DNA of 41,058 nt from positions 1 through 41,058 of IMG/VR virus record IMGVR_UViG_3300044489_000050; one strand, given 5' to 3'. Positions 1 through 41,058 of the stretch are shown one piece after another; position 1 is the first letter of the stretch; each line of letters opens with the position of its first letter. This stretch comes from a virus. Below the pieces are notes generated by a model. It had not been told where the DNA came from, searched no databases, and saw nothing but the letters and a program-made list of their open reading frames with translations. Made by a program: the position numbers and the translations under genes.

Positions 1-127
1 GTGACTACCCGTTTGCTGAAAAATGGATTTTAATAAACAACGTTCAAGATGAAGACAAGGTGGCCAGCCTTTTTAAGGGGGGCTTGGATGAAAGAGCTAT
101 CAAGTCCTCCGAGTATTACCAGCAGGC
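1..127. repeat. Terminal direct repeat, left copy (circular closure)
   Basis: Bases 1-127 are identical to 40932-41058. Joining them keeps a glycosyltransferase reading frame open across the ends, so the molecule is circular or circularly permuted. A length of exactly 127 fits an assembler k-mer overlap better than a biological terminal repeat (inference). Confidence 0.95.
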
Positions 128-560
128 CTTAGACTTCTTCGGTTTAACAATAGCCGACTTTAAGGGTGGTTATTATTACTCGATCTGTGAACTTATCGAA
201 CTTTACCTTGCTAAGGATTTTGACTACATCGTCCATTTTGCGGGCGACTGCGAACTTGATGCGGACGGTAACTGGATAAACCCCGCGATCGAGTCTCTTG
301 ATGGAAAAATTGTAACAGCTAGCCCCCATTGTCAGGGAGCAAGAATGGTTGATTTAGATCAGTTCTTTTCCGACCAATGTTATTTAATACCTGTTAAGAA
401 GTTTAGAAGAAAAATTTATAATCTAAAAGAACCCGTTTTACCACAGTATCCCCCTAAGGGTGGGGACGACTTTGAACATCTGGTCGCTCGTTACCTTCAC
501 AAATTTGGTAAGTATCGTAAGGTTTTAGGAGACTTTACCTATGTCCACCACAATGGATAG
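1..560 (+). CDS. Glycosyltransferase-like protein, 3' part of a gene that starts at 40838
   Basis: This is the C-terminal part of a 217-aa protein whose start (ATG 40838) lies at the other end of the window. The frame is open from base 3 with no start needed here; the GTG at 60 is internal. Residues such as FDYIVHFAGDCELD look like the acidic metal/nucleotide-sugar site of a GT-A fold, so it probably transfers a sugar, but similarity to a named family is weak. Its stop overlaps the next gene by 20 bases, which marks it as part of the overlapped sugar-modification operon. It could also be a conserved phage protein with only a GT-like fold. Confidence 0.7.
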   Translation, partial: DYPFAEKWILINNVQDEDKVASLFKGGLDERAIKSSEYYQQALDFFGLTIADFKGGYYYSICELIELYLAKDFDYIVHFAGDCELDADGNWINPAIESLDGKIVTASPHCQGARMVDLDQFFSDQCYLIPVKKFRRKIYNLKEPVLPQYPPKGGDDFEHLVARYLHKFGKYRKVLGDFTYVHHNG

Positions 561-1179
561 CGAACAATTTAAAACAATCGATATGTCCCTGTTTTGTGAC
601 CACAATGGGGGAATGGACACCTTTAAGGATCAGGTGCGGCAAGTCGCCGAGGAGGCACCAGAGGAACACTTTTTTGTGGAGTTTGGTAGCTATAGAGGCG
701 GGTCGGCGTTGACCTTGCTTGATGTTATTCGACAAACTAAGCCAGAGAGGTGGCTTTTGACAGTTGACCCATACGGAGCCAAACCATTTTTAGTTGGAAA
801 GGAATTGCGCCCTGAGTTCGTTTACAGCGAGGATATTTATCGGGATATGACCTACAACCTTTCTGGCTTTTCTTCTGCTTATAACCTAAACCACGCCCAC
901 TACCGAGTGACGAGTAATGACTTTATGACCATTTTCGATTCAATGAAATTTTGGTACAAGGGTAGCGTTATGGAACCGAAAATCGCCTGTATTTATATTG
1001 ATGGAGAACACACGGGAGAACAGGTGGATAAGGAGATAACTTGGGCTAAAAAGCATATGGAGAAGGGCGGACTAATTATTCTTGACGATGTAACCTTGAT
1101 TCTGGGGGAGTACCCGGAAGTATTGGACACGGTTAGACACGGGTTCCAAGACAACTTTCGTTGTTTCAGAAAAATATGA
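541..1179 (+). CDS. Class I SAM-dependent methyltransferase (Methyltransf_24-like)
   Basis: 212 aa. The N-terminal third carries FVEFGSYRGGSALTLL, the glycine-rich SAM-binding motif I of class I methyltransferases. It is followed by LLTVDPYG and then IYIDGEHTGEQVDKEI and GGLIILDDV, the pattern of the Methyltransf_24 / cephalosporin-hydroxylase-like group, which methylate sugars and other small substrates. ATG 541 has AGGAG at 527-531 as a ribosome site; ATG 553 is an alternative. It overlaps both neighbours, so it is translated with the surrounding glycosyltransferases. A likely role is O- or N-methylation of a sugar added by the cassette (inference). A second member of this family is at 39074. 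Confidence 0.8.
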   Translation: MSTTMDSEQFKTIDMSLFCDHNGGMDTFKDQVRQVAEEAPEEHFFVEFGSYRGGSALTLLDVIRQTKPERWLLTVDPYGAKPFLVGKELRPEFVYSEDIYRDMTYNLSGFSSAYNLNHAHYRVTSNDFMTIFDSMKFWYKGSVMEPKIACIYIDGEHTGEQVDKEITWAKKHMEKGGLIILDDVTLILGEYPEVLDTVRHGFQDNFRCFRKI

Positions 1180-1799
1180 TAAGTATCATCATTCCGGTCT
1201 ACATTGCCAATATGAAGCTCCTAGATGTGGTGGATAGGTGTCTTAGAAGTCTCGAGGCTACTACTACGGGAGAGTACGAAGTTATAACTGTGAACGATGC
1301 GTCGTCAGTTCCCTACGAGGCGACGATTACCCACGAGACAAACACAGGTTACACGAAGGCGGTAAACGACGGGATAAAAAGAGCGGCTGGGGAAGTTCTT
1401 GTAGTTGCCAACGACGATATTGAGTTAATCGAGGGGTGGCAAGATGCCCTCATACCTATGCTTATAGACACTAAGATAGGGGTGGCCTCCCTTCCAACCA
1501 ACGACGAGGAAACACCGATAAATGGCGGCATTATTGACGAGGCTAAATTTGGTAGCATTTGGGCTACGCGTAGAGACGTTTTTGATTCCGTGGGTTTATT
1601 GGACGAGTCCATGCCACACTATTTTTCTGATTTAGATTTTTACACACGGGTTAAGGAATCTGGCTTAAGGAGAGTTAAAAACACCAGTCTCATTCTCCCC
1701 CACGTTGGTAACGGGACATACAAAATAGTCGACCCCAGAGGGGACAGGTACTACGAGGATATGGAGGTTTATCGTAAAAAGTGGGGGAGGGTTGACTAA
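1176..1799 (+). CDS. Family 2 glycosyltransferase
   Basis: 207 aa. It opens with ISIIIPVYIANMKLLDVVDRCLRSL, the N-terminal nucleotide-sugar-binding strand of GT2 enzymes. TGYTKAVNDGIKRAAGEVLVVANDDIEL follows, in which NDD is the DxD-type metal site. HYFSDLDFYTRVKESG near residue 155 is the usual acceptor-side ED/DLDF motif, and GNGTYK follows. The family transfers a sugar from a nucleotide donor. ATG 1176 is chosen because it forms an ATGA overlap with the previous stop; an in-frame TTG at 1161 would add five residues. The closest look is to rhamnosyl-type GT2 proteins, but the donor cannot be read from sequence. Confidence 0.85.
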   Translation: MISIIIPVYIANMKLLDVVDRCLRSLEATTTGEYEVITVNDASSVPYEATITHETNTGYTKAVNDGIKRAAGEVLVVANDDIELIEGWQDALIPMLIDTKIGVASLPTNDEETPINGGIIDEAKFGSIWATRRDVFDSVGLLDESMPHYFSDLDFYTRVKESGLRRVKNTSLILPHVGNGTYKIVDPRGDRYYEDMEVYRKKWGRVD

Positions 1800-2677
1800 T
1801 GAAAATTAAAGTTTTTACAAACTGGGTAGGTGATGGGTGGAGTCCCTGGGGGTGGCTGAGGGGCACGGAATGTTTTATTAGGGAGTTTGCTGTTATAGCT
1901 GCTTCTAAAGGGCACGACGTGACCGTTTTCCACAACGGAGAGCTGCACGGGGATTACAAGGGGGCAAAGTTTGTTGACCACAAAGAGTTTAATTATAAGT
2001 GTGACCTCTTACTAATTATTAAGGAACCAAGTCTAGTAGACTCCCCAAACATCGAGGACGCTAAAAAGGTGTTATTTTACACAAATAACGTTGACGAAAG
2101 GGAGAACCTATATCCACGAAGGGTAAAAAAGATGGATAGAATTTTTGCTCTTTCCAATTGGCATAAGGACAACCTACTTTACGATATTCCTAAAGTTGAG
2201 GTTTTATTCCACGGAGTATATCCCGAAAAATATAAGGGCGGAGAGAAAAAGAAAGACCTTTGTGTCTACACATCAAGTCCTGACCGAGGATTGCAACACT
2301 TAAGAGAATTCTGGCCAGAAATAAAAAGACAAGTCCCCGACGCGCAACTGATAACAGCTTACGACGGTAAAAGTGACGCGGAAATGTGTGACCTTTACCG
2401 GATGGCCGACTTCTGGTTATATCCTTGCGGGGGAGGTGAGTTATACTCCATAGCTGGGCAGGAAGCTCAGGCCGCGGGCTGTATGCCTATTGTGATTCCA
2501 ACAATGGCCTTGGACGAAACGATTAGGTTTGGTGTTAAGACGAATTTACAAGATTTCGTTAAAGACGCCGTGGCAACAATGAAAAATAGGGGGTTAGTGG
2601 AGGCTGAGAGGGATAAAATGTTGGCTTACAAGTATCCGACCCACGAAGATGTATTTGAGCAAATAATAGCAAGGTGA
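1799..2677 (+). CDS. GT4-like (GT-B fold) glycosyltransferase
   Basis: 292 aa, short for GT4. The N-terminal half has a GGT/ECFI-type loop after MKIKVFTNWVGDGWSP and DRIFALSNWHKDNL, typical of the acceptor domain. The C-terminal half has SSPDRGLQHLREFWPEIKRQVPDAQL and YPCGGGELYSIAGQEAQAAGCMPIV, the E-x7-E nucleotide-sugar region of GT4. ATG 1799 shares its A with the preceding TAA, and GGGGGAGGG lies just upstream. It is the last gene of the sugar cassette. A strong promoter overlaps its stop codon, so the next operon starts here. Confidence 0.85.
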   Translation: MKIKVFTNWVGDGWSPWGWLRGTECFIREFAVIAASKGHDVTVFHNGELHGDYKGAKFVDHKEFNYKCDLLLIIKEPSLVDSPNIEDAKKVLFYTNNVDERENLYPRRVKKMDRIFALSNWHKDNLLYDIPKVEVLFHGVYPEKYKGGEKKKDLCVYTSSPDRGLQHLREFWPEIKRQVPDAQLITAYDGKSDAEMCDLYRMADFWLYPCGGGELYSIAGQEAQAAGCMPIVIPTMALDETIRFGVKTNLQDFVKDAVATMKNRGLVEAERDKMLAYKYPTHEDVFEQIIAR

Positions 2678-2696: not shown

Positions 2697-2753
2697 TTGT
2701 AAAGAAAAAGTCTTACAACCCGCTAGTATTTTTAATTACGGCGGGCTTTTTTT
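2697..2753 (+). terminator. Leader A: hairpin plus intrinsic terminator before the adaptor gene
   Basis: Hairpin 1 is TTGTAA (2697-2702) with TTACAA (2713-2718) around an A-rich loop. It abuts a terminator CCCGC (2719-2723)/GCGGG (2741-2745) followed by C and seven Ts. The adaptor ATG begins at 2754, directly after the T-run, with no Shine-Dalgarno between. It ends the sugar operon and also attenuates promoter A. Confidence 0.75.
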
Positions 2754-3404
2754 ATGGCAATGAAAACAGTTTCAGGTCTGATGCAAGATATAGCTCACCA
2801 CGTTAATGGTGTAACTACGGCCCCTACTGCTGGGACGGACGAATATAACCAATTCTTGAATGCCTTAAACCAGTCACAAGACGATGTTGCTGCTGTTGAT
2901 TATGACTGGGAGGGATTGCGGTATGTTCACCGTACGACGTTGGGAGTTTCTGGGACTTCGGTATCACTACCAACAAACTTTGTTAAGCCGATGGGCTTTC
3001 TTAAAGTAGAAGATAAGGAGTACCCCCAGATCGGGGCGGAGGAAACGGGCAAATTCCTAAGTGATGATGATTATGTTGTTTACAACTACGCCGAAAAATA
3101 TTGCACGATCAACCCAGCTGCTGCTTCTGTTTCGAGGGTAGATATCCCCTATCTGGCCCACCCCTCTACTCTGGCGACTTTAACACAGACCTCGTTTGTA
3201 CCTTCCGACCAATTTTTGACTAAGAGATCCGCGTACTACATCCTCTTAACTCGAGAAAACCCACGCTATGAGGAGTACAAAAGGGAGTCTGATCTTCTTC
3301 TTGCCCAGATGATCGGGAAGGAGGTTCACGACTTTGTCCAACGGGATTCGTCTATTAAGAATGACCTGCGGGATGTACAGAAGTTTGAGTTGGGTGTGGA
3401 TTAG
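2754..3404 (+). CDS. Head-tail adaptor (podovirus tail tubular A-like)
   Basis: 216 aa. The helical N-terminus (TVSGLMQDIAHHVNGV, NQFLNALNQSQDDVAA) followed by WEGLRYVHRTT and LPTNFVKPMGF, and the position before a nozzle-type protein, match the gp11-like adaptor of podoviruses, which forms a ring beneath the portal. The late helix (YEEYKRESDLLLAQMIGKE) also fits. Start choice: ATG 2754 immediately follows the terminator T-run, and ATG 2760 is an equally SD-less alternative. It is the first gene of operon A. Confidence 0.65.
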   Translation: MAMKTVSGLMQDIAHHVNGVTTAPTAGTDEYNQFLNALNQSQDDVAAVDYDWEGLRYVHRTTLGVSGTSVSLPTNFVKPMGFLKVEDKEYPQIGAEETGKFLSDDDYVVYNYAEKYCTINPAAASVSRVDIPYLAHPSTLATLTQTSFVPSDQFLTKRSAYYILLTRENPRYEEYKRESDLLLAQMIGKEVHDFVQRDSSIKNDLRDVQKFELGVD

Positions 3405-5961: not shown

Positions 5962-5967
5962 AACCAG

Positions 5968-5996
5968 CTTATAGCATAACAATAAAAATATGGCAA
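5968..5996 (-). promoter_or_regulatory. Moron promoter for the SCP gene, leaderless
   Basis: Reading the minus strand: TTGCCA (5996-5991), 17-nt spacer, TATAAG (5973-5968). A start 7 nt on would fall at the ATG at 5961, so the mRNA would be leaderless. The -35 lies inside the first codons of the divergent gene at 5990. Confidence 0.6.
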
Positions 5997-7162: not shown

Positions 7163-7173
7163 AAGTATGAGAT

Positions 7174-10100
7174 ATGGCCAAAAGCATTTTAGACAAAGTT
7201 CGGGATATTCTCGGCGGAGCTAACCAGCAACCACAGGCGGTTCCTTCTTTTGCGCCAAAGCAGATAAACACCCAGACCCCGCGACTACCAAGTTTTAGAG
7301 AGGTTACTAATTACTTTAACCCCCAAAGCAACGCCGGGAGAAACTTTTGGAGTACCCCTGTAGCTAGAGGATTAGGTTCCGTCCAGCAAAACGTGATCCA
7401 ACCCGTAATTAATAGGTCTATTCTCAACCCGCAGGCACCAAGTAACCAGCTAGGTAGTCGTCTTGTCGGAGCAAACCCCCTTTTACAAGCTCTTCCTGGT
7501 TTCACTCAAGGGGCTCTACCATTTTTACCTAAGCAAACTTATCAAAACATTCCCCAGCCGATAGGTGCTGTTGGAAATGTTTCCCGCACCGTCGGACAAA
7601 TTGCTGGGTCCCTAGCCCCGTTTAGCTTGCTTTCAAGAATACCGGCAGCGGTTAGTGCCGGAACACAGGCTGCCAAACTCGCCCCAGCCGTTTCTAAAGT
7701 CTTTCCAGGACTAACCAAGATAACCCCGAAAGCGCTTGAGGAGGCTGGTAAGTTTGGCGTTGCGGGGACGCTCTACTCTAATTTGGCTAAGTTGCCGGAG
7801 AAAAGCCCGGCAACCATTGCCAAAGAGACACCAGAAGAGCTAGGACTTCAAGCGGGTTTAGGTCTAGCGTTTCCTCTAGTGGGCGGGGTTGTTGGTAAGG
7901 TGGGTGGAAAGGTAATTAGCAAGGCGAAGGGGGGTATGGACGACCTTTTGAGGGAAGCTAAGAAGTATAAGAGTGCAGAGGAGTTTGTGAGGGCAAGAGT
8001 AAATATGATACACGGGACGAACGCCGACTTTCGGGAGTTTAAAGAAGTAAGTCCTAGTAAGGGACAGGCTATTTATTTAAGCCGACCGGATCAGTTAAAA
8101 GCGAAATCCGTTGCTAGTGATAAAGGAAGGTTGATGGAAGTTGCAGTTGACGAAAGCAAAGTAAAAACATTTGACACACAAAATCCGAATGCTGAGCAAG
8201 AATCTATAATTCAGAGAGTTATAGATAAAATTTATGGCAAGGGTAAGTATATATTTGACTATAGAGCGCCAATAGAGACGAGAAATATTATAAATAGGGT
8301 GGACGATGCTCTACAATCGGAAGTAATTAAACAAGGTAGCAAGCTCGGATATAACGACTTCCGATTTTATGAGCCGTCTACGAATGAGTATTCAAGAGCG
8401 ATAACAGATAACTCTTTAGTCAAAACTAGACCGCAGCTCACCGATATCTGGAATCGGGCTACAAAAGCCCAAGCACTGGGTCAAGATGATCGGGGACTTG
8501 GCTCTAAACTAACCCCGGACTTAAGAGAGGCTAGGAAGTATAAAAGTGCGGAGGATTTTGTGAGGACGTGGGGTCAGAAGGTTTACCGCGGTATAAACGA
8601 ATCTAGCGGTGCAAAAAAGAAATGGTCATTACAGTATTTTACTTATTCTCCAGAAAGGGCAATGGATTACGGGACGGAGTATATTGAAAAGACGGTATTT
8701 CCTAAGAAGACCGCGGATTTTACGAATCCAACCGAGGAACTAAAACAGATTCTCCTCAAGAATGAATATGGGTTCGGCACCACAAAAATAGACAAACTTC
8801 TTTCACATAGGGGACTAAATATCGGAGATAACTTTTTTGATCTCATGGAAGATAGGAATATACAGGCGGCTCTTCAAAAAGCTGGGTATGATTCCGTGAA
8901 GTACCCTGATGTGTCAAACCAATTCGTTCCTCACGATACATTCGCAACGCTTCCGAATTATAAAGAATCTGTTACTAAATCCCAACTCACTGACATCTGG
9001 AATCGGGCTAATCAACAGGCACAGATAGGAAAAGTCCCAACAGGTAAAGTAGTCCAACGCCCAGATACCACAGAGCCAACGCGCCAAGAAGCTTTTTCAA
9101 TAGATCCCAGCCGTTTGAAAACTCAATTGGTTCCAGAAAGTCGGGGTCGCCAAACATCGGGAGGCAGTATACCACAAGTAGACGCTGCGTACTTAGCAGA
9201 GGCCACCCCAGAAACCCTAGCCAAGGCACAGACTAAGCAGGAGAAGTTTAATGCCTCCCAGTCCGAGAGAGACCTAAAAGAATGGCAAGAAATGGTCTTT
9301 AAGCGGGCGGGGGCTATATTTAAGACCCGTGGTGAGGCACTTTCCCAAAAGATAAGCAAAGGTATGGGGGAAGCAACAGATGCTCGACTTAAGCGCGAAT
9401 TTGTGACTACTCAAGGTGGGAACATCATCACGTCTAAGGGAGGGAAAATGCTGGAAAAGAACATTATGGACAGGGCGACTACATGGAAAGATAAACCCAG
9501 ACTATTATACGGTAGGGAAACAATGGAGAGGAACTTTGAGGACATTATGGGCAAGGATGCCCCAGAAATGAAAGCCCGTTACATTGACCCTGTAAAAGCT
9601 TCCGAGGCCCAAAGACAAAGGTTTTTAACTAAGGAGCGGGGCGAAATAAAAGAGTTAGGAATTGCTGCCAGGAGCGAGCAGTCTAAACTTGTCCAGCAAC
9701 TTGGCGAGGGGCTAATTAGCAAAGAAGAGATACTAAAGAGACCGGATGGCGAGAAGATAGTCAAAGCCGAACAGGTGTTACGAGAAAAGTACAAGAAGTA
9801 TCTAACGGATATTAATGCCGTACTCACAAGGAACGGTTATGACCCAATACCCGAAAGAAAGGACTATTTTAGACACTTTACCGAAACACAGGGGCTTTTA
9901 GAACAGGTAGGTATTCCATTGAGAGACAGCTCTCTACCAACTGACGTTAATGGAATATCAATGGACTTCAAACCAGGTAAGAACTTTTTTGCTAACGCCT
10001 TACAAAGAAAAACAAACATTACCGACTATGATGCTATTCAAGGTATAGACGGGTATTTAGAGGGGGCGAGTAAGCAGCTCTTCCACACGGACAACATACA

Positions 10101-14820: not shown

Positions 14821-14830
14821 TTTTCTAGTT

Positions 14831-14959
14831 GTGCTCTCAAGGAGGCTAGTGAAGGTGGCGCGCCGTAGGAGATTCGAACTCCTAATCCTTCCCTTAGCAG
14901 GGGAATGCTCAGTCCTATTGAGCTAACGGCGCCCAGTTCATTAGCCCCCTCAAGAGCAC
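14831..14959. repeat. Inverted repeat enclosing the tRNA
   Basis: The left arm GTGCTCTCAAGGAGGCT (14831-14847) and right arm AGCCCCCTCAAGAGCAC (14943-14959) match at 14 of 17 positions when one is reversed. They could form a long stem around the tRNA, possibly part of its precursor, or an element end. Confidence 0.5.
14856..14932 (-). tRNA. tRNA with anticodon GCT (serine codons AGC/AGT), class I shape
   Basis: On the minus strand a 77-nt cloverleaf forms: acceptor GCGCCGT/ACGGCGC, D-arm GCTC/GAGC with GG in the loop, anticodon stem TTCCC/GGGAA with loop CTGCTAA, a 5-nt variable loop GGATT, T-arm AGGAG/CTCCT with TTCGAAT, discriminator G and an encoded CCA (14856-14858). The anticodon is at 14896-14898. 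Bacterial serine tRNAs normally have a long variable arm and this one does not, so its charging identity is uncertain. Near-complementary arms (14831-14847 and 14943-14959) enclose it. Confidence 0.85.
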
Positions 14960-14966
14960 AAAAATA

Positions 14967-15183: not shown

Positions 15184-16224
15184 CTATCTAGAGGCCACAT
15201 TTGTCAACTTGGTTTTAATGTCCAGATTGATATGACCATCCTCCTCCAAAAACCGGTACTCAAAGCGTTTATCGGCTTGCAGCGCAAAGGATTTAATGGT
15301 ACTGATGAGTGCTTGTAAGATTTCCAGAGGACAGGTTGATCTTCTAATAAGCGGCAGTTTTTTAATGGCCTCCTTCAGGTCTTTAGTAACCAGGTGTTCG
15401 TACTTAGCGGTCATGGAGATGTCGTGTCCAGCGATCTTGGCGATCTTGTGAATGTTGATGTCTTCCTCAAGACAACGGGTGATAAATGAATGGCGTAGGG
15501 AGTAACAAGTAAGGTGGGGGCGTTTGATACCTAACCTCTTTATTCTTTGCTGGAAGTTATAGTGCCAGTCTACGTTATCGAATACTGCTTCCTTGGTGGA
15601 GGACTGAAACAAGTTGTTAGTCTTTAGGGCCGAAACGTAGGCTTTCAGTTTTTCGGCTAGGTTGGGTGGGATAGGAACATACCTTAAAGTGTTTGTTTTG
15701 CAGATTTCGGGCCGGATAACAAAAACCCCCTGCCCAAAGTCTACATCTGAGATAGTTAGGTGAGCCACCTCCCCCGGTCTCATACCTGTAAAAGCAAGGA
15801 TGGAAAAAAAGAGCGTCCACCTTTCGTAGTTCCTAGCACCTAAGCTATAAGTGATAGTGTGGCCCCAACGATCAGGACGGGTAATAGTTACGGGGGGAAG
15901 ATTAAGAAGCGCCTCAATCTCACCATCCGACAGGGTAGATTTGATAGTGGGATGTTCTCTCAAGTACGGCCACGTCTTAAACTCCTCAATGTTTTTGAGC
16001 TGTCCAAAGACACGGATGGTGTCAACGTAGACATTGATATAGGAGTTACGCCGACCAACAAGGATTAAGCTGTCGAGATATTTTTGTATTTCCTCTTTTG
16101 AGAAGTCGGAGTGTTTAAAGAGACATCTTAGTTGGATTAAGTGGCGGTAAACGGTAGACGCGCGGAGACCCCGTTTTATTAGGAAAGCCTTAAAGCTGTC
16201 TTTAACTAATTCAAACTCACTCAC
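15184..16224 (-). CDS. int: Tyrosine recombinase / integrase
   Basis: 346 aa from GTG 16224. The N-terminal 90 residues form a SAM-like core-binding helical domain (VKDSFKAFLIKRGLRASTVYRHLIQLRCLF). The catalytic domain shows the first Arg in TGMRPGEVAHLTISDVDF, a Lys-type strand ICKTNTLRYVPIP, then YSLRHSFITRCLEED (second Arg; Tyr replaces the usual His, a common variant), the GH in KIAGHDISM and the nucleophile Tyr in TAKYEHL. All key residues are present. GGGGGG lies upstream of GTG 16224; GTG 16260 would add 12 residues. It catalyses site-specific integration or dimer resolution. The attachment site may be the tRNA or the inverted repeat nearby (inference). Confidence 0.9.
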   Translation of the reverse strand: MSEFELVKDSFKAFLIKRGLRASTVYRHLIQLRCLFKHSDFSKEEIQKYLDSLILVGRRNSYINVYVDTIRVFGQLKNIEEFKTWPYLREHPTIKSTLSDGEIEALLNLPPVTITRPDRWGHTITYSLGARNYERWTLFFSILAFTGMRPGEVAHLTISDVDFGQGVFVIRPEICKTNTLRYVPIPPNLAEKLKAYVSALKTNNLFQSSTKEAVFDNVDWHYNFQQRIKRLGIKRPHLTCYSLRHSFITRCLEEDINIHKIAKIAGHDISMTAKYEHLVTKDLKEAIKKLPLIRRSTCPLEILQALISTIKSFALQADKRFEYRFLEEDGHINLDIKTKLTNVASR

Positions 16225-16290
16225 ACGCCTACCCCCCACCCAATAACCTCCACCCAACACACCACGTAAATAAGCGTTCCATAAAGACTA

Positions 16291-16473: not shown

Positions 16474-16695
16474 ATGTCTAACAACGTTATAACCCGGAAC
16501 AAACCGAAAGTCAAATACACATACCCTCCACAAGTCGAGTTCCATGCCCGCGTTTACAACTACTCAAAAAGCAATCCTACACTAACCCTTCGAGATGTCG
16601 CCGCTAAATACGGCAGATCGCACGAACGCATCAGACAGATTATCCGACGCATTAACAGGAAGCCCGAAGAATACGAGGGGCTAATAAATTTATGA
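16474..16695 (+). CDS. Small HTH protein (sigma region 4-like)
   Basis: 73 aa. Residues 36-60 (TLTLRDVAAKYGRSHERIRQIIRRIN) form a helix-turn-helix in the style of sigma-70 region 4, whose recognition helix typically reads R-RIRQI. It is the first gene of the early operon, following the terminator T-run by 2 bases with no SD, so a DNA-binding regulatory role is likely. It overlaps the next small gene by ATGA. Confidence 0.65.
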   Translation: MSNNVITRNKPKVKYTYPPQVEFHARVYNYSKSNPTLTLRDVAAKYGRSHERIRQIIRRINRKPEEYEGLINL

Positions 16696-19893: not shown

Positions 19894-20496
19894 ATGAAAG
19901 AGTTTAGTTTGGGAGTAAAACATCAACTGTTCAATAACGAGTTAAGAAAGCGGCGCGAAACCCTTGGGCTGTCACAGAATAAATTAGCCAACGCACTCGG
20001 AATAAGTAAGGAGACAATATGCGGTTTGGAAACATTTAGAACCTATCCTAGGCCAGCAGTTGCCGAGAAACTAGCGGAGTTCTTTGATATATCCGTACAA
20101 GAGATGTTTCCTGGTTGGCTCAAGGAAATGAGGGGCAAAAAGACAACTGTTGTGACAGAACATTTAGTTACGGAGAGAATGCTTGACCATCCAGAAATGA
20201 AGTTATTACCAGAGTCCGCGGGTAGTCAGGAGTCAATGGACGCCGAAATAGAAACAAACCTCTTGCACAAAGGGTTAGCGAAAGCCATGGAAACACTAAA
20301 GCCACGGGAACGCCGAGTTTTGGAGGAAAGGTTCGGGTTTAATGGTACGGGAGGAAGAGGTCTAAAGGAAGTTGGAGAAATGTTTGGAGTTACGAGGGAG
20401 CGAATACGGCAGATAGAAGCTAAGGCTTTGAGAAAGTTAAGACACACAACGGGGTCTAACGAACTGAAAAAGTTTATGGGGGCAACAAGTCTATGA
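19894..20496 (+). CDS. XRE-type HTH fused to sigma-70 region 4
   Basis: 200 aa. Residues 15-70 (LRKRRETLGLSQNKLANALGISKETICGLE) are a classic XRE/HTH_3 domain. Residues about 129-195 (LKPRERRVLEERFGFNGTGGRGLKEVGEMFGVTRERIRQIEAKALRKLRH) match sigma-70 region 4, including the -35-binding helix R-ERIRQIEAKAL and the RxRxVLxxRF lead. There is no region 2, so it cannot melt DNA alone. It may tether to RNA polymerase at selected promoters, or bind core as an anti-sigma or appropriation factor. It overlaps the next gene by ATGA. Confidence 0.8.
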   Translation: MKEFSLGVKHQLFNNELRKRRETLGLSQNKLANALGISKETICGLETFRTYPRPAVAEKLAEFFDISVQEMFPGWLKEMRGKKTTVVTEHLVTERMLDHPEMKLLPESAGSQESMDAEIETNLLHKGLAKAMETLKPRERRVLEERFGFNGTGGRGLKEVGEMFGVTRERIRQIEAKALRKLRHTTGSNELKKFMGATSL

Positions 20497-33681: not shown

Positions 33682-33710
33682 TTGACAGATGTAAACGAAG
33701 GATTTATAAT
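33682..33710 (+). promoter_or_regulatory. Promoter E, perfect consensus
   Basis: TTGACA (33682-33687), 17-nt spacer, TATAAT (33705-33710). It drives the scaffold/capsid operon. Confidence 0.9.
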
Positions 33711-34684: not shown

Positions 34685-35593
34685 ATGGGTCAATTATCTG
34701 GTGCATACGCCACATACGACGACGTCTTAAGACGGGAAGATCTACTCGACTATATTGCCGATGTTTCCCCAGACGCTAACTACCTAATGACTACGTTGAA
34801 GTCCGGTAGTGCGTCGCAGACTCTTCACGAATGGGGAGATTACAATACCGCCAGACCGACAAGCAACGGAGCGAAGACCATTGAAGGCAATGATGCCTCT
34901 TTTTCGGATTTAACTAAAGCGACCCGAAAGAATAACATAACCCAGCTATTCCAAGAGACTTTTGCGGTGACCTCCACGGAGATCGCTGTTAATAAAGTCA
35001 ATCCCAAGGATGCCTACGCTCGCGAAATGAACTACGCCATGAGAAGGATCAAGAACAACATGGAGTACGCCGTTTTGAGAGGAACTAAGGCCTCTGGGGC
35101 TTCTGGAGTTGCTCGTGAAATGGAGGGTGTCTTTGTTACTGTTAAAGGTAATGGTTTGGCCACGGTCCGCGCTTCGGGTACGTCCCTTTCCGAAACCGAG
35201 TTTAACGCCATCGAGGTGGCCTCTTGGAACGTTACAGACGAGTTCGTTTTTGATCTCGTTCTGACGACAGGTAAGAGAAAGCAGGACATTTCCAAGTTTA
35301 CCGCTGGAAACACCAAGAACATTCCAGCCGAAGATAAGAGGTTGGTTAATTCGATCTCTGTCTACGAAGGAGACTTTGGCGTCCACGAGATCCGCGCCCA
35401 CAAAGACATGGTCACGGACGCGGTGCTCTGTGTTCGTAAGGAAAACCTTGGTCTTGCCTATCTTATCCGCCCGCATCACATCGAGTTAGGGAAGACTGGG
35501 TCATCCCGCAAGGGTATGATCGAGGCAGAACTAACTGCTGAGACATTCGGGGCAAGAGCAATGTCTTTGCGAGAAAACTACAACTTGACTTAG
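34685..35593 (+). CDS. Major capsid protein (SU10-like / DUF5309-type)
   Basis: 302 aa. YDDVLRREDLLDYIADVSPDANYLMTTL and TLHEWGDYNTARP are the opening of the SU10-like major head protein group; FQETFAVTSTEIAVNKV and EYAVLRGTKASG follow. HK97-type fold expected. Ribosome site AGGGGGTGA lies upstream, although the spacing suits an out-of-frame ATG at 34677. It is followed by a terminator. Confidence 0.8.
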   Translation: MGQLSGAYATYDDVLRREDLLDYIADVSPDANYLMTTLKSGSASQTLHEWGDYNTARPTSNGAKTIEGNDASFSDLTKATRKNNITQLFQETFAVTSTEIAVNKVNPKDAYAREMNYAMRRIKNNMEYAVLRGTKASGASGVAREMEGVFVTVKGNGLATVRASGTSLSETEFNAIEVASWNVTDEFVFDLVLTTGKRKQDISKFTAGNTKNIPAEDKRLVNSISVYEGDFGVHEIRAHKDMVTDAVLCVRKENLGLAYLIRPHHIELGKTGSSRKGMIEAELTAETFGARAMSLRENYNLT

Positions 35594-35618: not shown

Positions 35619-35640
35619 AGAGCGGGTCGGCGCTCTTTTC
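35619..35640 (+). terminator. Terminator after the capsid gene
   Basis: AGAGCG (35619-35624)/CGCTCT (35631-35636) with TTTT. The next ATG is at 35643, just after it, with no promoter visible between. It limits read-through from the capsid into the sugar cassette. Confidence 0.65.
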
Positions 35641-35642
35641 CT

Positions 35643-36092
35643 ATGCGCTTTCCACCCCGACCGGTGGACGGCGCTTATGAAAATATGACGGAGACCTTTG
35701 GCGATACTCTAGTAATTGATCCTGTCTCTAAGTTCATTTCGGGACGTACGAAAGTAAGACCCGTTTGGGCGGTGGGAGCAGTTGATGCGTTGATAGAGAA
35801 GATGAACAAGAGGGGTCTTTGGCCGACGGTCGAACTATTAATAACGATCTGGCTAAAGAGGAACCCAGATAAAGCGAGGGAGTTTATGCGGGCCAAGGAT
35901 GATGTTTCAAGGACAAGAGACACAGACACAGCCTCTAGCCAAAACTTAAGTCATCGCTATCTTTTGGAGGTGCCAGATGAGATCGTCACGGGGATTGACA
36001 TTCTTTGGGGATCGAAAATTAAAGACAAGAAAGAGTTTTGGCGGGACTTTGCCAAGCAGTTTCCTATGTTTCGGGTCGCGGAAAAAGTATGA
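35643..36092 (+). CDS. Hypothetical protein after the capsid gene
   Basis: 149 aa, MRFPPRPVDGAYENMTETFGD with a mixed alpha/beta body. No named family is recognised, but location between capsid and cassette suggests a conserved head-region protein. It overlaps the next gene by ATGA. Confidence 0.5.
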   Translation: MRFPPRPVDGAYENMTETFGDTLVIDPVSKFISGRTKVRPVWAVGAVDALIEKMNKRGLWPTVELLITIWLKRNPDKAREFMRAKDDVSRTRDTDTASSQNLSHRYLLEVPDEIVTGIDILWGSKIKDKKEFWRDFAKQFPMFRVAEKV

Positions 36093-38407
36093 AGAAGATT
36101 GCCCTTAATTTTATAATGAAAGGCACGGAGGAACCAAGTCAGATTGTTAAGATGCTTTCTTCGATTGCTCCCTACGTTGATGCTATCTATTGCACAGCCA
36201 CTTGGGATGTAAATGGACGGGCTGTTAAGATCGCTCGATCATTTGGGGCCGAGGTTTCGTTTTTCGAGTGGATTAAGGACTTCGCCGCCGCTAGAAACTT
36301 TGCCTTGGCGCAGGTTCCGGACAAGTACGAGTACATCTTTTGGTGCGACACGGACGACGTGATTGTGGGCGGGGAGCACATCCGCAGATACATAGAACTA
36401 GATAAAGACCGCTATTTCATAAATTACAACTACACCATTGACGAGAAAACAGGCGAAGCCTTAGTTGTCCATCCCAAGGAAAGAATTTTAAGAAAAAGCT
36501 TATTTGTGTGGAAGGCCGCCCTCCACGAGGTGCCTATTCCCCTTAATAGTCAAATTAGTCAAGAATTTATACGAGAGATTGTGGTCAACCACTATCCGAC
36601 AAAGGAGAACATAGAGGACGGCTTTAAACGTAACTTAGAGATACTGGAAAAGACATACCAAGAAGAAGGCAACGAACACGACCCGAAGACAGTGTACTAT
36701 TTAGCAAGATCTTATTTCGACCTAAATAATTACCAGAAGGCCGAGGAAATGTTTTGGCAGTATCTCGCGGGAAAGAACCCATCGGGTTGGGACGAAGAAA
36801 GGGCGATGGCCTACAACTATTTAGGACTGATGTACACGGCTTTGTCTAAGCTTGATGATGCCAGGTCTTGCTTTCATATGGCGATGGACGAAAAGCCAGA
36901 ATTTCCGACTTGGTACATTAACCTTGGTGTGACCTACGCCAAGATTAAGGACTGGGATAAATGTATCTTTTGGACGTCTAGAGGTCTTAAGATGCCCCAA
37001 CCAAAGACGGCGATGATCCTTTCTCCCCGTGATGATCTCGTGCGCGGCTGGTCAGTTCTTTACGATGCTTGTATGCAAAAGAGGAAGTTAAAGGAGGCGT
37101 TTTCGATCGCGAGCGAGCTTTGTAAGATATTTCCTGATGACAAGTTCTTTGAGCAAAGGCGAGTTTCTGTTTATAACGTGATGCGTTGGACAGAAATGAG
37201 CAAGAACATCAAAGAGATAGCGGAAGAGTGCCGAAGCTTGGACGAAGCTCATAAAATAAGGGCGTTACTCTTAAACCTCCCATCGACTATTGCAGACAAT
37301 GCTTATATTGAGAACCTGAAACAGGCTTACATTGTACCGGAAACGTGGCCGAAGAAGTCTATTGCTTACTACTGTGGCCGTTCTGTTGAGTCTTGGGATG
37401 AGACGAGCCTCGAAAAAGGTATCGGTGGGAGTGAGACGGCAGTAATTGCATTATCTCGCTTCTGGGCCAAGCGAGGTTGGAAAGTGACTGTCTTTGGACT
37501 ACCCTTCGAAGAGCATAGAGACAAATACGGGGTTGACTGGAAGATGTATTGGCGGTTTAATCCTAGGGACAATTTTGACGTTTTTATTGGTTGGCGAGCA
37601 CCATCGCTTTTCAAGGAGAAGATTAAGGCGCGCGTTGCCGCCATTGACTTACACGACGTTATCCAGCCGCAGGATTACAGTCCGACTGTAATTGCAAACA
37701 TTGACAAGATTTTTGTTAAGAGCAAATTTCAGGCTTCGATTGCTCCCCATATTCCCCGAGAAAAACTGGAGGTTATTACCAACGGCTACGTCAAGGATTT
37801 CCTGCCGAACTTAAACAAAGTTAAGCGCGACCCTTATAAAATCATCTACTGTTCTTCTTATGATCGAGGGTTGGAACTCATGCTCAAGTGGGGCTGGCCA
37901 CTTATCAAGGAACAAATACCCCAAGCGGAGCTACACATTTACTATGGTTGGAACACCTTTGACAATTTCTTTGCCCCTTCTGGTATCGCTCCAAACAGAG
38001 AGCGCATGGCCTGGAAGGCTAAGATGATGGAACTAATTAAACAAGACGGAGTTTATGAACATGGGAGGATATCTCAGAAAGAGCTATTACTAAAGAAAGC
38101 TGAGTCGAGTATCCACTATTACGCCACGGATTTCGACGAAATTGACTGTATTAGCGTGAGAGAGAGTGCTGCGGTCGGCTGTATTCCCATAACATCCAAC
38201 TTCGCCGCTTTAAGTGAACGGGGGTATTGCAACAGGGTAGAAGGAAACCCCAGAGATAAAAGGATACAAGAGGCGATCGCTCGAACTGTCGTAGGCGCGC
38301 TTAGAAACGGACCCCAGAAAGATTATCGAGAAGCTATCCAAACCCTAGCTCGTAAAGAAAGTTGGGAAGAGGTAGCTAAAAAATGGTTGGAGGTGTTTGG
38401 GGAATGA
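36089..38407 (+). CDS. GT2-TPR-GT4 trifunctional glycosyltransferase
   Basis: 772 aa from ATG 36089 (ATGA overlap). Residues 1-150 are GT2-like with WCDTDDV as the DxD motif. Residues about 185-340 are TPR-type repeats (DPKTVYYLARSYFDLNNYQKAEEMF; AMAYNYLGLMYTALSKLDDARSCFHMAM). Residues about 430-770 are GT-B/GT4-like (GGSETAVIALSRFWAKRGWKVTVFG, IFVKSKFQASI, SSYDRGLELML, ISVRESAAVGCIPI with the E-x7-E-like site). Such multidomain glycosyltransferases build glycans. Two transferase activities plus protein-protein repeats in one chain is unusual for a phage. Confidence 0.8.
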   Translation: MKKIALNFIMKGTEEPSQIVKMLSSIAPYVDAIYCTATWDVNGRAVKIARSFGAEVSFFEWIKDFAAARNFALAQVPDKYEYIFWCDTDDVIVGGEHIRRYIELDKDRYFINYNYTIDEKTGEALVVHPKERILRKSLFVWKAALHEVPIPLNSQISQEFIREIVVNHYPTKENIEDGFKRNLEILEKTYQEEGNEHDPKTVYYLARSYFDLNNYQKAEEMFWQYLAGKNPSGWDEERAMAYNYLGLMYTALSKLDDARSCFHMAMDEKPEFPTWYINLGVTYAKIKDWDKCIFWTSRGLKMPQPKTAMILSPRDDLVRGWSVLYDACMQKRKLKEAFSIASELCKIFPDDKFFEQRRVSVYNVMRWTEMSKNIKEIAEECRSLDEAHKIRALLLNLPSTIADNAYIENLKQAYIVPETWPKKSIAYYCGRSVESWDETSLEKGIGGSETAVIALSRFWAKRGWKVTVFGLPFEEHRDKYGVDWKMYWRFNPRDNFDVFIGWRAPSLFKEKIKARVAAIDLHDVIQPQDYSPTVIANIDKIFVKSKFQASIAPHIPREKLEVITNGYVKDFLPNLNKVKRDPYKIIYCSSYDRGLELMLKWGWPLIKEQIPQAELHIYYGWNTFDNFFAPSGIAPNRERMAWKAKMMELIKQDGVYEHGRISQKELLLKKAESSIHYYATDFDEIDCISVRESAAVGCIPITSNFAALSERGYCNRVEGNPRDKRIQEAIARTVVGALRNGPQKDYREAIQTLARKESWEEVAKKWLEVFGE

Positions 38408-39093
38408 AGATAGGTATCCTAACTGTAGCCTACAGAGAAGAGTATTTTATAGCATACTGTGTGAATCAGTTTAAGGGGCGAGGCTTCCAGCACCTTGTTT
38501 TGGTTTCGGATACACCGTGGCACGGGGAAAGAGAACCGATGGACGAGACGGTGGAATTAGCCGAGAGGACGGGAGCGGAAGTTATCGTTTCGGACTGGTC
38601 AACCGAGGCCGAGCAAAGGAACTACGGCCTGAAGGAACTGAGAGAGAATGACTGGGTTTTGATCGTCGACGCTGACGAGGAATATGAGAAAGGGAGTGTG
38701 GATAGCCTTCTTACTTTTCTCGAGACAGCGAACCTCCCAGCCTACGGTATCGGTAAGATAGCGACTTACTGGAAGACAAAAGAATATCGGATCGATCCGC
38801 CGGAATCTGGTGGACTAATCGTGGCGGTTAAACCGACTGTCCAATTTTATGACAAGCGGTGCGTCTCTTCCGAATGGGACTTTCTACCGGAGGATATTGT
38901 TATGCACCACTACTCCTATGTACGGGATGACTTGGGAATGAGGCGTAAGATCGCAACCTTTGAACACGCCAATGAAATAGTACCTAACTGGTACGAGGAG
39001 GTGTGGTGTAAATGGACACCGGAGAGTCAGAACCTCCACCCCGTACATCCTGAAAGTTTTGCTAGAGCTATTTATGTTGGTCAAGAATCCTGA
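38404..39093 (+). CDS. Family 2 glycosyltransferase
   Basis: 229 aa from ATG 38404 (ATGA overlap). MKIGILTVAYREEYFI leads to EQRNYGLKELRENDWVLIVDADEEYEKG, where VDADEE is the DxD site. It is a GT2-type nucleotide-sugar transferase; donor and acceptor are unknown. It overlaps the next gene by 20 bases. Confidence 0.8.
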   Translation: MKIGILTVAYREEYFIAYCVNQFKGRGFQHLVLVSDTPWHGEREPMDETVELAERTGAEVIVSDWSTEAEQRNYGLKELRENDWVLIVDADEEYEKGSVDSLLTFLETANLPAYGIGKIATYWKTKEYRIDPPESGGLIVAVKPTVQFYDKRCVSSEWDFLPEDIVMHHYSYVRDDLGMRRKIATFEHANEIVPNWYEEVWCKWTPESQNLHPVHPESFARAIYVGQES

Positions 39094-39745
39094 TTTATAT
39101 AATTTAAACGTCAATTCCACTCCCTTTTTAAGGGATCACCGTGATTTTGTGGAAAAATATGAGTGGGGTTGCGGAGATAGGCCTCTACACTGGATGTGGT
39201 ACCAGATATGTTCGGAGCTTCCTGTAGATGCTAAGCTATTAGAGATAGGCTGTTATATGGGGCAAGTACTATCTCTATGGGCATTAATCGGGAGGAAGCT
39301 AGGACGAAACTTTAGGGTTTATGGTATTACGCCTCTTTCCCCAGAGCCGGATATACATTCTGCCTATAAGGATATAAATTACCGTGAAGCAATTGAGAAA
39401 ATACATTGGAGGTTTGACTTATCTAATCCGGAACTATTCGTAGGACTTTCCCAAGACCAAACCTGTATTGACAAGGCGAGGAACTTAGGCGAACTTGACG
39501 TTTTATACATTGACGGCGGTCACAACTATGAAAATGTTGTGGCTGATATCCAAAACTACGCCCCTTTAGTTAAAAAACATGGTTTTATTGTTACGGACGA
39601 CTCGCTCTACAATATGGACGGGAGCAACACAACAGGGTACTTAGGTTTTGAGAGTGTTACCAATGCTGTAAACGAATATCTAATGAACAAAGGCGTAGCC
39701 GAGATCTCCAGAGTCGCCCACAACCGTGTTTTTAGGAAATTATGA
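39074..39745 (+). CDS. Class I SAM-dependent methyltransferase
   Basis: 223 aa from ATG 39074. AKLLEIGCYMGQVLSLWALIG is SAM motif I. VLYIDGGHNYENVVADIQNYAPLVKKHGFIVTDDS matches the Methyltransf_24 group, as in the gene at 541. It probably methylates a sugar of the cassette (inference). Confidence 0.8.
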   Translation: MLVKNPDLYNLNVNSTPFLRDHRDFVEKYEWGCGDRPLHWMWYQICSELPVDAKLLEIGCYMGQVLSLWALIGRKLGRNFRVYGITPLSPEPDIHSAYKDINYREAIEKIHWRFDLSNPELFVGLSQDQTCIDKARNLGELDVLYIDGGHNYENVVADIQNYAPLVKKHGFIVTDDSLYNMDGSNTTGYLGFESVTNAVNEYLMNKGVAEISRVAHNRVFRKL

Positions 39746-40245
39746 GTTATCAAGAAAGATATTTAGCTCACCAGCTAAAGAAAAAGGAGACTCTAACCAA
39801 GCTTATTAAGTCGCGACACTCAACGCGTGTCTTTTCGGACGAGGTTATTGACGTGAAACTGCTTGAGGAGATTATAGACTCGCTTTCGATGTGTCCGTCC
39901 TCTTGTGATCGACACGGAGTCTACACAAGACTTTATTACAATCGTGACGATAAGGAGCTACTAGCGGGGCTTTTAGTGGGCGGTGTGGGTTGGTTGCACA
40001 GAGCGGGAGTTATTGTCCTTTTATTTGGAGACCCAGAAGCGTACAGGGAAAACCTACATTATATGCCCTATCTCGACGCTGGCGTTATGATCTACCACCT
40101 TTACCTAATGGCTGAGGCCTATGGGCTTAAAGTTTGTTGCGTGAATCCTAATGTACGAGAGGACAATAGGGAGTTTTTTAAAAGTAGGTTTGGTAGTGGT
40201 GTGTTTTGTGGAGCTGTAGCTTTAGGCTACGATGGAAACTTATGA
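39742..40245 (+). CDS. Nitroreductase-like flavoprotein
   Basis: 167 aa, short for the family. SRHSTRVFSDEVIDVKLLEEIIDSLSMCPSSCDRHG is the FMN-binding opening of nitroreductases. YLDAGVMIYHLYLMAEAYGLKVCCVNPN and a GYDGNL end also fit. These enzymes use flavin and NAD(P)H. It is embedded between a methyltransferase and a GT2 gene with ATGA overlaps. A redox step on a sugar or lipid carrier is possible (inference). Confidence 0.75.
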   Translation: MSYQERYLAHQLKKKETLTKLIKSRHSTRVFSDEVIDVKLLEEIIDSLSMCPSSCDRHGVYTRLYYNRDDKELLAGLLVGGVGWLHRAGVIVLLFGDPEAYRENLHYMPYLDAGVMIYHLYLMAEAYGLKVCCVNPNVREDNREFFKSRFGSGVFCGAVALGYDGNL

Positions 40246-40844
40246 TCTCCGTGGCTGTTATTAGCTACAAATACGGTCATTTAATTGCTCAGGCTATTGA
40301 CAGCGTGCTAAGTCAAACCAGAAAACCAGACGCATTGGTGGTTGTAGACGACGGGGCCTATGACTGCCACTTTGTTAAGGAAAAGTATCCGGAAGTCGAG
40401 TTAATTGAGCGTCCTGTAAACTTAGGCATTGTGGGTAACAAAAACGATATTCTCTTTAACGTGATTAAGACGGACAAGATGGTGATGCTGGGGGCGGACA
40501 ACTGGTTGCGTCCCGATGCCCTAGAAAAAATGGAAAAGTCGGGGACGGATATTGTTTCTTCTTGGCTCTACATTACGGGGGAAGAGGCTCATGATACACG
40601 AGGTGCGTGTGTCTACAACGACTGTGGGTACTTTCGCTGGGAGTTGCCCGGCCCCCACGGCTGTAGCCTCCACGATGTGGAAAAGGCACGGGCGGCTGGA
40701 GGATATAAACCCAGTGGTAGAGCAAAGTCTGAAGAGGACAGTGTGATGTTTAGCAAAATGATCGAAAATGGATCGAGTTTTAGTGTCGTAGCGGAGCCGC
40801 TGCTTTACTATAGAAGGCATAGGCATAACTTTCAAAAATGGTAG
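40242..40844 (+). CDS. Family 2 glycosyltransferase
   Basis: 200 aa from ATG 40242 (ATGA overlap). ISVAVISYKYGHLIAQAIDSVLSQTRKPDALVVVDDGA is the GT2 opening, and MVMLGADNWLRPDALEKM carries the acidic metal site (ADN variant). SEEDSVMFSKMIENG is the acceptor-side ED motif. It overlaps the next gene by 7 bases. Confidence 0.85.
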   Translation: MISVAVISYKYGHLIAQAIDSVLSQTRKPDALVVVDDGAYDCHFVKEKYPEVELIERPVNLGIVGNKNDILFNVIKTDKMVMLGADNWLRPDALEKMEKSGTDIVSSWLYITGEEAHDTRGACVYNDCGYFRWELPGPHGCSLHDVEKARAAGGYKPSGRAKSEEDSVMFSKMIENGSSFSVVAEPLLYYRRHRHNFQKW

Positions 40845-41058
40845 AACCCAGAGTCTTGTTTACAACCAAAACATACCATAACGACTTCGGCCCAATGGCC
40901 AACGGGGGCTTTTCAAGAAAGTGGCAGAAGTGTGACTACCCGTTTGCTGAAAAATGGATTTTAATAAACAACGTTCAAGATGAAGACAAGGTGGCCAGCC
41001 TTTTTAAGGGGGGCTTGGATGAAAGAGCTATCAAGTCCTCCGAGTATTACCAGCAGGC
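40838..41058 (+). CDS. Glycosyltransferase-like protein, 5' part (continues at 1-560)
   Basis: ATG 40838 begins MVEPRVLFTTKTYHNDFGP and runs in frame to the window end, then continues through the 127-base repeat to the stop at 558-560. The full protein is 217 aa. See 1-560 for the domain evidence. Confidence 0.75.
   Translation, partial: MVEPRVLFTTKTYHNDFGPMANGGFSRKWQKCDYPFAEKWILINNVQDEDKVASLFKGGLDERAIKSSEYYQQ
40932..41058. repeat. Terminal direct repeat, right copy
   Basis: Identical to 1-127; see that entry. Confidence 0.95.

Follow-up and report, generated by a model that had tools for sequence, protein, structure and literature searches.

A glycosyltransferase cassette linked to the capsid gene of a podovirus, probably of Patescibacteria, and its possible role in virion glycosylation

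The cassette and its boundaries

The window analysed here is the whole of IMG/VR virus record IMGVR_UViG_3300044489_000050, a stretch of 41,058 nucleotides. Since its two ends share a 127-bp repeat (40932-41058 = 1-127) and an ORF of 217 aa is continuous across the join, it represents a circle of 40,931 bp. A preliminary description had placed a nine-gene sugar and tailoring cassette of about 7.5 kb, or about 18% of the genome, next to the capsid genes. By measurement, the cassette runs from 36089 through the join to 2677, which amounts to 7,520 bp or 18.4% of the circle, and its nine genes lie between the major capsid protein (MCP) and small head gene on one side and the tail adaptor (2754) on the other. 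All adjoining cassette genes overlap, as had been claimed, by 1-20 nt and mostly in the ATGA manner; visual inspection moved the start of GT5 to the ATG at position 40242, which gives a 4-nt overlap. A megablast search of the 7-kb region against phages returned 0 matches. All of the features described in this section are on the plus strand.

The MCP gene (34685..35593; phrog_1328, E 7.5e-42) belongs to a LUZ24/P22-like podovirus module, and its product is 64% identical to the MCP on a Moraniibacteriota MAG contig. Directly 3' of it is a terminator-like hairpin (35619..35636; AGAGCGGGTCGGCGCTCT+TTTCC) that may act as a throttle on cassette expression; hairpins after the MCP gene were also seen by eye in several relatives (L010, L050 and L128 among them). 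A single gene separates the MCP from the cassette. It encodes a small head-module protein of 149 aa (35643..36092), whose "hyp" profile is conserved beside the MCP in 30+ loci and trails it even in relatives that have no cassette at that place, and it is a boundary gene rather than a cassette enzyme. At the far end of the cassette, a terminator-like element (2719..2753; CCCGC...GCGGG-CTTTTTTT) was read from the sequence; it is absent from the list of the automatic terminator scan, probably because of its long loop. The tail adaptor (2754..3404) that forms the downstream boundary is conserved in relatives and occupies this position in L010, L019, L050 and L128, alone or with a stabilization protein.

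The first cassette gene (36089..38407) encodes GT1, a double glycosyltransferase of 772 aa identified by homology and by a fold model. It consists of a GT2 family (GT-A) domain, a TPR region and a GT4-like (GT-B) domain, and the predicted model of this GT-A/TPR/GT-B arrangement has a pLDDT of 89.5. GT1 is homologous to GmaR (5e-8), and D87/D89/D90, GGSE and E684 are invariant. The Glyco_transf_4 Pfam match has an E value of 4e-4, which is below the Pfam cut-off, and no GT41 family was found in the Pfam scan of GT1. The best solved-structure matches of the model are polypeptide glycosyltransferases, namely SunS/ThuS, SPY and OGT. Against 7msp, which is of the SunS/ThuS type, TMt is 0.66-0.68 with an rmsd of 3.3-3.4 over about 300 columns, and GT1 has the GT-A and helical domains of that type in the same fold; whole-length TM-scores to OGT and SPY are low (about 0.3). 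These fold matches owe part of their strength to the common GT and TPR folds.

The next four genes encode GT2, a GT2-family glycosyltransferase of 229 aa (38404..39093; PF00535, 1.2e-6) with a homolog in the L128 cassette (L128:8157-8867, 27%, 5e-29); an O-methyltransferase-like Methyltransf_24 protein (39074..39745; PF13578, 5.5e-12) that is also above the cut-off for the RMNT_CmcI rhamnosyl O-methyltransferase family (PF04989, 2.1e-5); a nitroreductase-like flavoprotein (39742..40245; PF00881, 9.5e-11), perhaps serving a sugar redox step; and the GT2-family enzyme GT5 (40242..40844; PF00535, 5e-12). Beyond GT6, which spans the join, are a further O-methyltransferase-like Methyltransf_24 protein (541..1179; PF13578, 2.3e-14) and two more glycosyltransferases. 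GT8 (1176..1799; PF00535, 1.1e-11) is of the GT2 family, matches a GtrB-like PHROG marginally (0.0024) and is the accessory gene richest in homologs across other cassettes (L010, L019, L020, L022 and L050). GT9 (1799..2677; phrog_2170, 1.4e-9) is GT4-like (GT-B) and shows homology to the C-terminal half of the GT1 of relatives.

The two methyltransferases and the nitroreductase-like gene of the preliminary description are thus borne out by Pfam, and five of its six glycosyltransferases (GT1, GT2, GT5, GT8 and GT9) are backed by homology. The sixth, GT6 (217 aa; 5' part 40838..41058, 3' part 1..560), is a candidate only, since it lacks a Pfam or PHROG match, aligns marginally by hhalign to a GT2-family profile (p 0.008, probability 5%) and gave a useless single-sequence model (pLDDT 36). 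A scan for relatives of GT6 recovered the same virus only; from its sequence, it is possibly a GT-A enzyme. Because GT1 has two GT domains, the cassette still holds six of them.

Conservation and turnover among relatives

The order MCP-hyp-GT1-variable genes-adaptor-stabilization is found in the window, in Manatee Spring phage MW202718 and in many IMG/VR contigs, as well as in one Moraniibacteriota contig and one Patescibacteria prophage. In 28 loci, all within one half of the capsid tree, GT1 comes after the capsid gene. When the label "GT1 after MCP" (27/58 rows) is mapped onto the MCP tree, 3 changes are counted versus 19.5 in shuffles (0/500), and all 13 rows of the window's own clade are positive. 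The locus sample is biased towards known members, and GT1 itself served as the bait for L089-L101. Single-sequence pattern searches that started from GT1 and from the MCP recovered mainly the same virus. The GT1C-MCP pair co-diverges with a rho of 0.60 (0/500 permutations), similar to the MCP-portal pair (0.56), while MCP-terL gives 0.17. On iteration, the GT1N profile drifted towards generic GT2 proteins, and it was left out of this analysis. GT1 can also sit elsewhere than behind the MCP, between terL and portal, which is still in the virion module. In L018, L032 and L033, which have a capsid protein among the positives, GT1 was not seen; these contigs are fragments.

The genes downstream of GT1 behave differently, with a mean of 7.8% of accessory genes held in common. 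Cassettes of relatives add nucleotide-sugar enzymes, further glycosyltransferases and methyltransferases, and the recognised accessory families are mostly sugar-related. GT1 is the conserved anchor of the cassette. A conserved core glycosyltransferase with variable outer glycosyltransferases and methyl-capping genes is present, as a pattern of genes.

A conserved position of this kind could also mark an insertion hot spot with cargo for another purpose.

Host and lifestyle

The host is probably an ultra-small member of the Patescibacteria. Of the Patescibacteria genomes sampled, exactly the two with the MCP contain a full-length GT1 (2/380, and 2/362 in a second scan), and one of these (G113) carries it in an integrated prophage. 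In genome G430, the MCP is present and the contig stops about 450 bases later. A control set of 299 Pseudomonadota genomes held 0 full-length GT1 and one GT-B-only match. The preliminary description had drawn its parallel with actinobacteriophages; this framing does not fit, as the cassette-bearing capsid kin sit in Patescibacteria genomes, and no sign of an actinobacterial host was found.

The phage is probably temperate, given its integrase gene (15184-16260) and the relative integrated in G113. Integrase homologs occur in 4/362 Patescibacteria genomes. The best of these (G219) was considered as a prophage and rejected, with no phage structural genes in the surrounding region. The tRNA-Ser region, used as an attachment-site probe, had no match in one Moraniibacteriota genome.

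Comparison with known systems

Virion glycosylation is described for the mycobacteriophages Che8, Corndog and Myrna (Freeman 2023, as cited in PMC12363180 and PMC12619734). Like these phages, the window encodes its own glycosyltransferases, and a capsid or tail protein is the target there and the proposed target here. For the mycobacteriophages, single GT genes are named and glycans have been shown by experiment, whereas the window has a nine-gene set with a double glycosyltransferase locked to the capsid gene, belongs to another host phylum and is described from its genes.

Chlorovirus PBCV-1 glycosylates its own major capsid protein autonomously (PMC7019647). It resembles the present system in its soluble viral glycosyltransferases, including multidomain ones, its methyltransferase capping and its nucleotide-sugar enzymes, and also in a conserved core with virus-specific outer sugars, a feature read here from gene conservation. 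However, PBCV-1 belongs to a giant-virus lineage with another capsid fold, whereas the capsid of the window is of a tailed-phage family.

Among individual enzymes, the SunS/ThuS S-glycosyltransferases and GmaR (GT2 plus helical domain) share with GT1 a GT-A domain with helical repeats and a DxD-type motif. They act on polypeptide acceptors, as GT1 putatively does, but GT1 has an extra GT-B domain. OGT and SPINDLY (GT41) likewise have a TPR region followed by a GT-B domain; the GT-B part of GT1 has a weak match to Glyco_transf_4 and none to a GT41 family, and GT1 also has an N-terminal GT-A domain. The same gene order (MCP-hyp-GT1-cassette-adaptor) occurs in the Manatee Spring phages MW202718, MW202524 and MW202743, whose GT1 is 30% identical over its full length but whose accessory genes are others. 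Their record gives a gene-by-gene annotation and does not mention a capsid-linked system.

Virion glycosylation and its alternatives

The reading favoured here, with a probability of roughly 60%, is that the cassette is a cytoplasmic pathway that glycosylates one or more virion proteins, in which the priming enzyme is conserved and the outer glycan can be exchanged. It draws on the gene content, overlaps and position, the conservation and co-divergence of GT1 with the MCP, the turnover of the other genes, the predicted fold of GT1 and the scarcity of membrane segments, one membrane-like segment having been found among 120 cassette and GT1 proteins. The acceptor is most likely the MCP or a different protein of head or tail that is encoded in this gene block; the MCP is proposed as the acceptor, or as one among several. 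The GT-A/TPR half of GT1 would put the first sugar onto the polypeptide and its GT-B half would add the second. Elongation of the chain would then fall to the variable GT2 and GT4 enzymes, and its capping or tailoring to the Methyltransf_24 proteins, perhaps helped by the flavoprotein. The primer would be inherited along with the capsid gene, and lineages would swap the outer enzymes, so that every phage has a surface glycan of its own, with a benefit in, for example, adsorption or particle shielding. We infer the polypeptide acceptor, the order of the steps, the identities of the sugars and the benefit.

The preliminary description had offered both virion glycosylation and modification of host surface glycans. 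The former stands, from the genes, as the best-supported explanation, considering the locking of GT1 to the MCP, their co-divergence, the protein-GT folds and the location in the virion block. The latter would make the genes auxiliary enzymes that remodel host surface glycans or pili, for superinfection exclusion or epibiont adhesion, and sugar genes of Patescibacteria phages have been read as auxiliary, enriching the rhamnose of host lipopolysaccharide (PMC12911398). The phage is probably temperate, surface glycans are a plausible target, and the GtrB-like match of GT8 points the same way. However, the cassette lies in the virion block, away from the integrase, GT1 tracks the MCP, none of the 120 cassette proteins has at least two membrane segments, and lipid-carrier and flippase families are all but absent from those listed; the Pfam and PHROG scan of the cassette found no GtrA flippase or multi-spanning Gtr transferase family of the gtr type of serotype conversion. 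Host-surface remodelling is thus weakened and seems unlikely. The resemblance of GT1 to enzymes with non-viral targets (SunS, GmaR and OGT) would also suit a protein glycosyltransferase acting on a non-virion protein of host or phage, such as pilin precursors or takeover targets, but as this would leave both the locking of GT1 to the capsid and the quick turnover of the whole outer-glycan gene set unexplained, it is considered improbable.

The strong turnover of accessory genes might also be expected of neutral cargo, if sugar genes with no single function had gathered at a recombination hot spot downstream of the capsid gene. Against this are the conservation of the GT1 catalytic residues at large divergence, the tight gene overlaps and the predominance of sugar-related families among the recognised accessory genes, and such an origin is judged very improbable. 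In a further reading, the glycosyltransferases act on modified DNA bases in evasion of restriction. Phage glycosyltransferases that act on DNA are known (Pyle 2024, as cited in PMC12619734), and an N6/N4 DNA methylase is encoded in the genome; yet no thymidylate synthase-like or hydroxymethylase gene was present among the scanned ORFs, the likely genes outside the scan all being short (at most about 135 aa), and the TPR-containing, SunS/OGT-like architecture of GT1 favours polypeptide acceptors. DNA hypermodification is regarded as very improbable.

Implications

Phage sugar genes are often classed as auxiliary host metabolism. A primer tied to the capsid gene and coevolving with it, together with exchangeable outer enzymes, constitutes a testable alternative, in which the virus coats itself. 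The chances are about even that there is a lineage of Patescibacteria podoviruses with a self-contained, capsid-locked glycan island, in which a single conserved two-headed protein glycosyltransferase serves as primer and swappable enzymes make a partly O-methylated coat that differs from phage to phage. If true, virion glycosylation would be widened from the single glycosyltransferases of mycobacteriophages to pathways of several steps in a bacterial phylum that is uncultured. The cassette would then represent a compact set, made by nature, of soluble enzymes for protein glycosylation, and the capsid glycosylation of chloroviruses would have a counterpart in bacteria. It would also raise the question of what role a glycan coat plays for the phage of an epibiotic host.

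Genome organization

The window is a tailed phage, taken from an IMG/VR viral record. Its two ends have 127 bases in common, and joining them gives a circle of 40,931 bp in which the ORF over the join is open throughout (217 aa). Since an assembler with k = 127 also leaves a repeat of 127 bases on a circular graph, the repeat is read as a sign of circularity and not as a physical terminus. A second contig, IMGVR_UViG_3300044996_000059 (30,563 bp; L002/L004/L158 among the loci compared), encodes proteins 100% identical to those of the window and has the same break point.

The genome encodes TerL (25191), a capsid protein (34685-35593, phrog_1328), a stabilization protein (3411), an endolysin (13637) and, on the minus strand, a tyrosine integrase (15184-16260). 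The portal (26925), scaffold (33796) and adaptor (2754) were named by their position and homology to annotated relatives. Homologs of the capsid protein are carried by podoviruses of the LUZ24 kind.

Near the integrase lies a tRNA-Ser(GCT) (14826-14964, minus strand), flanked by complementary arms, GTGCTCTCAAGGAGGCTAGTGAA and TTCATTAGCCCCCTCAAGAGCAC, with a hairpin and T-run alongside; this may be a phage tRNA that is expressed, or else a piece of the attachment site. An XRE-type HTH is fused to sigma-70 region 4 at 19894-20496, and a second small sigma-70 region 4 protein is found at 16474-16695. A CAP-domain protein with a hydrophobic N-terminus (PF00188, 5e-4; 5458-6009, minus strand) is encoded opposite to the late genes. 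The 1563-aa virion-like protein at 7174-11865 has no Pfam match, although two stretches of it were picked out by eye as putative ADP-ribosyltransferase domains.

The putative glycosylation cassette

The cassette begins at 36089, crosses the join and ends at 2677; it consists of nine genes, which overlap their neighbors by 1-20 nt. At 7,520 bp, it takes up 18.4% of the circle, in agreement with the preliminary description. The latter also counted six glycosyltransferases, two methyltransferases and a nitroreductase-like gene, which holds for all genes but one. Pfam and PHROGs scans identified GT2 domains at 38404-39093, 40242-40844 and 1176-1799, Methyltransf_24 domains at 39074-39745 and 541-1179, and a nitroreductase at 39742-40245, while the gene at 1799-2677 matched a glycosyltransferase PHROG. 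The ORF over the join was not confirmed as a glycosyltransferase by Pfam, PHROGs, profile alignment or structure modeling. The first gene, GT1 (36089-38407, 772 aa), itself supplies two glycosyltransferase domains.

A sigma-70 promoter-like site, TTGACA-17-TATAAT, that matches the consensus at 12 of 12 positions (33682-33710) lies shortly before the scaffold gene and the capsid gene, and a terminator-like hairpin (35619-35636) directly follows the capsid gene. Hairpins were also seen by eye after the capsid genes of three relatives (L010, L050 and L128); weaker promoter and terminator matches were as common, or nearly so, in shuffled sequence. A strong late transcript might thus be thinned at the post-capsid hairpin, ahead of the cassette enzymes.

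GT1 has matches to the transferase domain of GmaR and to TPR families, and a weak one to Glyco_transf_4. D87, D89 and D90 in the GT-A part and GGSE and E684 in the GT-B part are invariant in an alignment of 18 relatives. With AlphaFold2, GT1 was modeled at high confidence (pLDDT 89.5), though the pTM of 0.60 leaves the relative placement of its domains less certain. The secondary structure of the model is consistent with GT-A and GT-B domains with TPR helices between them. In the Protein Data Bank, the model came closest to SPINDLY, O-GlcNAc transferase (OGT) and SunS/ThuS, all of which are enzymes that glycosylate polypeptides. Glycogen synthases, which have a GT-B fold like GT1, come further down the list of matches. 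SunS (7msp) superimposes with a TM-score by target of 0.66-0.68 (3.3-3.4 Å over about 290-300 columns). Full-length OGT and SPINDLY superimpose poorly (TM about 0.3, large rmsd), and thus have domains in common with GT1, but not the overall shape. The top matches to the model are suggestive of a polypeptide acceptor, but do not prove it.

A conserved core and a variable periphery

Loci were collected through capsid-based searches, which do not select for glycosyltransferases, and through GT-based searches, and were classed with profiles built from the collected sequences. GT1 follows the capsid gene in 28 loci, including the window, while in 37 the adaptor or stabilization protein is reached without an intervening GT1. 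In five (L006, L034, L037, L040 and L065), GT1 is upstream of the capsid gene; in L006, L037, L040 and L065 it is found between terL and portal. When 58 capsid proteins are placed on a tree, the GT1 label requires 3 changes, compared to 19.5 with shuffled labels (0/500). The supported clade of the window (13 rows) is GT1-positive throughout, and the 28-row clade that holds the Pseudomonadota genomes is GT1-negative throughout. L018, L032 and L033, which break the pattern on the positive side, are contig fragments of 12-16 kb, so that absence of GT1 is not established for them.

In the GT1-free half of the tree, L048 has a GT2-like gene two ORFs after the capsid gene, a possible independent gain. 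In L006 (MW202497), GT1 is split in two, with an ORF annotated as “groEL” (5640-7208) in between. ORFs of a similar kind, 520-575 aa long, occupy the same place in L037, L040 and L065, which makes the annotation doubtful; the ORF may be part of the sugar genes.

Divergence of the C-terminal half of GT1 correlates with that of the capsid protein (Spearman 0.60; 0/500 permutations), to a degree similar to the portal (0.56) and higher than TerL (0.17). For GT1 and the capsid protein, this shows co-inheritance rather than interaction. The accessory genes, meanwhile, are on average only 7.8% common between cassettes (325 pairs). Even L128, the closest relative of the window (64% capsid identity), has 13% of them in common and adds a PIG-L deacetylase-like protein, a methyltransferase and a cytidylyltransferase. 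Cassettes with both boundaries range from 3.4 to 10.2 kb. Among the 25 of 58 Pfam families listed for 102 cassette proteins are GT2 (15), epimerase/dehydratase (9), DegT aminotransferase (3) and cytidylyltransferase (3), along with several methyltransferase families, GT1/GT4 families and others. A simple hydropathy test assigned a membrane-like segment to one of 120 cassette proteins and two segments to none.

Host

When genomes were searched at one per species, the closest capsid was that of a 10.6-kb contig assigned by binning to a Candidatus Moraniibacteriota MAG, although binning alone is weak evidence for a host. A genome of the same phylum, G113, carries the capsid gene, GT1 and four more cassette genes on one 67.8-kb contig that continues past an integrase into cellular genes, named by eye from sequence (e.g., glutamyl-tRNA synthetase, peptide deformylase and methionyl-tRNA formyltransferase). 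Full-length GT1 occurs only in these two capsid-bearing genomes out of 362 sampled, and thus behaves as a phage gene in Patescibacteria. Among 299 Pseudomonadota genomes there was no full-length GT1 and one GT-B-only match. The host is therefore probably a Patescibacterium; these comparisons give no support for an actinobacterial one. In another Patescibacteria genome, an integrase 44% identical to that of the window adjoins a LexA-like gene (G219:C1:787239-788372), with no phage structural genes visible in the surrounding 35 kb.

Proposed target of glycosylation

The cassette was kept out of the OGT/GT41, gtr serotype conversion and DNA-glycosylating classes because defining features of these were looked for and not found. 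The preliminary description left the choice between the virion and the host surface. Comparable sugar genes of Patescibacteria phages have been interpreted as having an auxiliary role in host surface rhamnose (PMC12911398). No description of a capsid-locked cassette of the present kind was met in the mainly open-access literature searched, which does not prove novelty.

The capsid protein of chloroviruses carries glycans assembled by soluble viral glycosyltransferases, with a core that is conserved and an O-methylated periphery that is specific to each virus (PMC7019647). There are also mycobacteriophages that reportedly glycosylate their capsid and tail tube (PMC12363180, PMC12619734). By analogy, and as judged from its genes, the cassette may work in a similar way to both. 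The gene pattern favors the virion as the target of the cassette, without amounting to proof.
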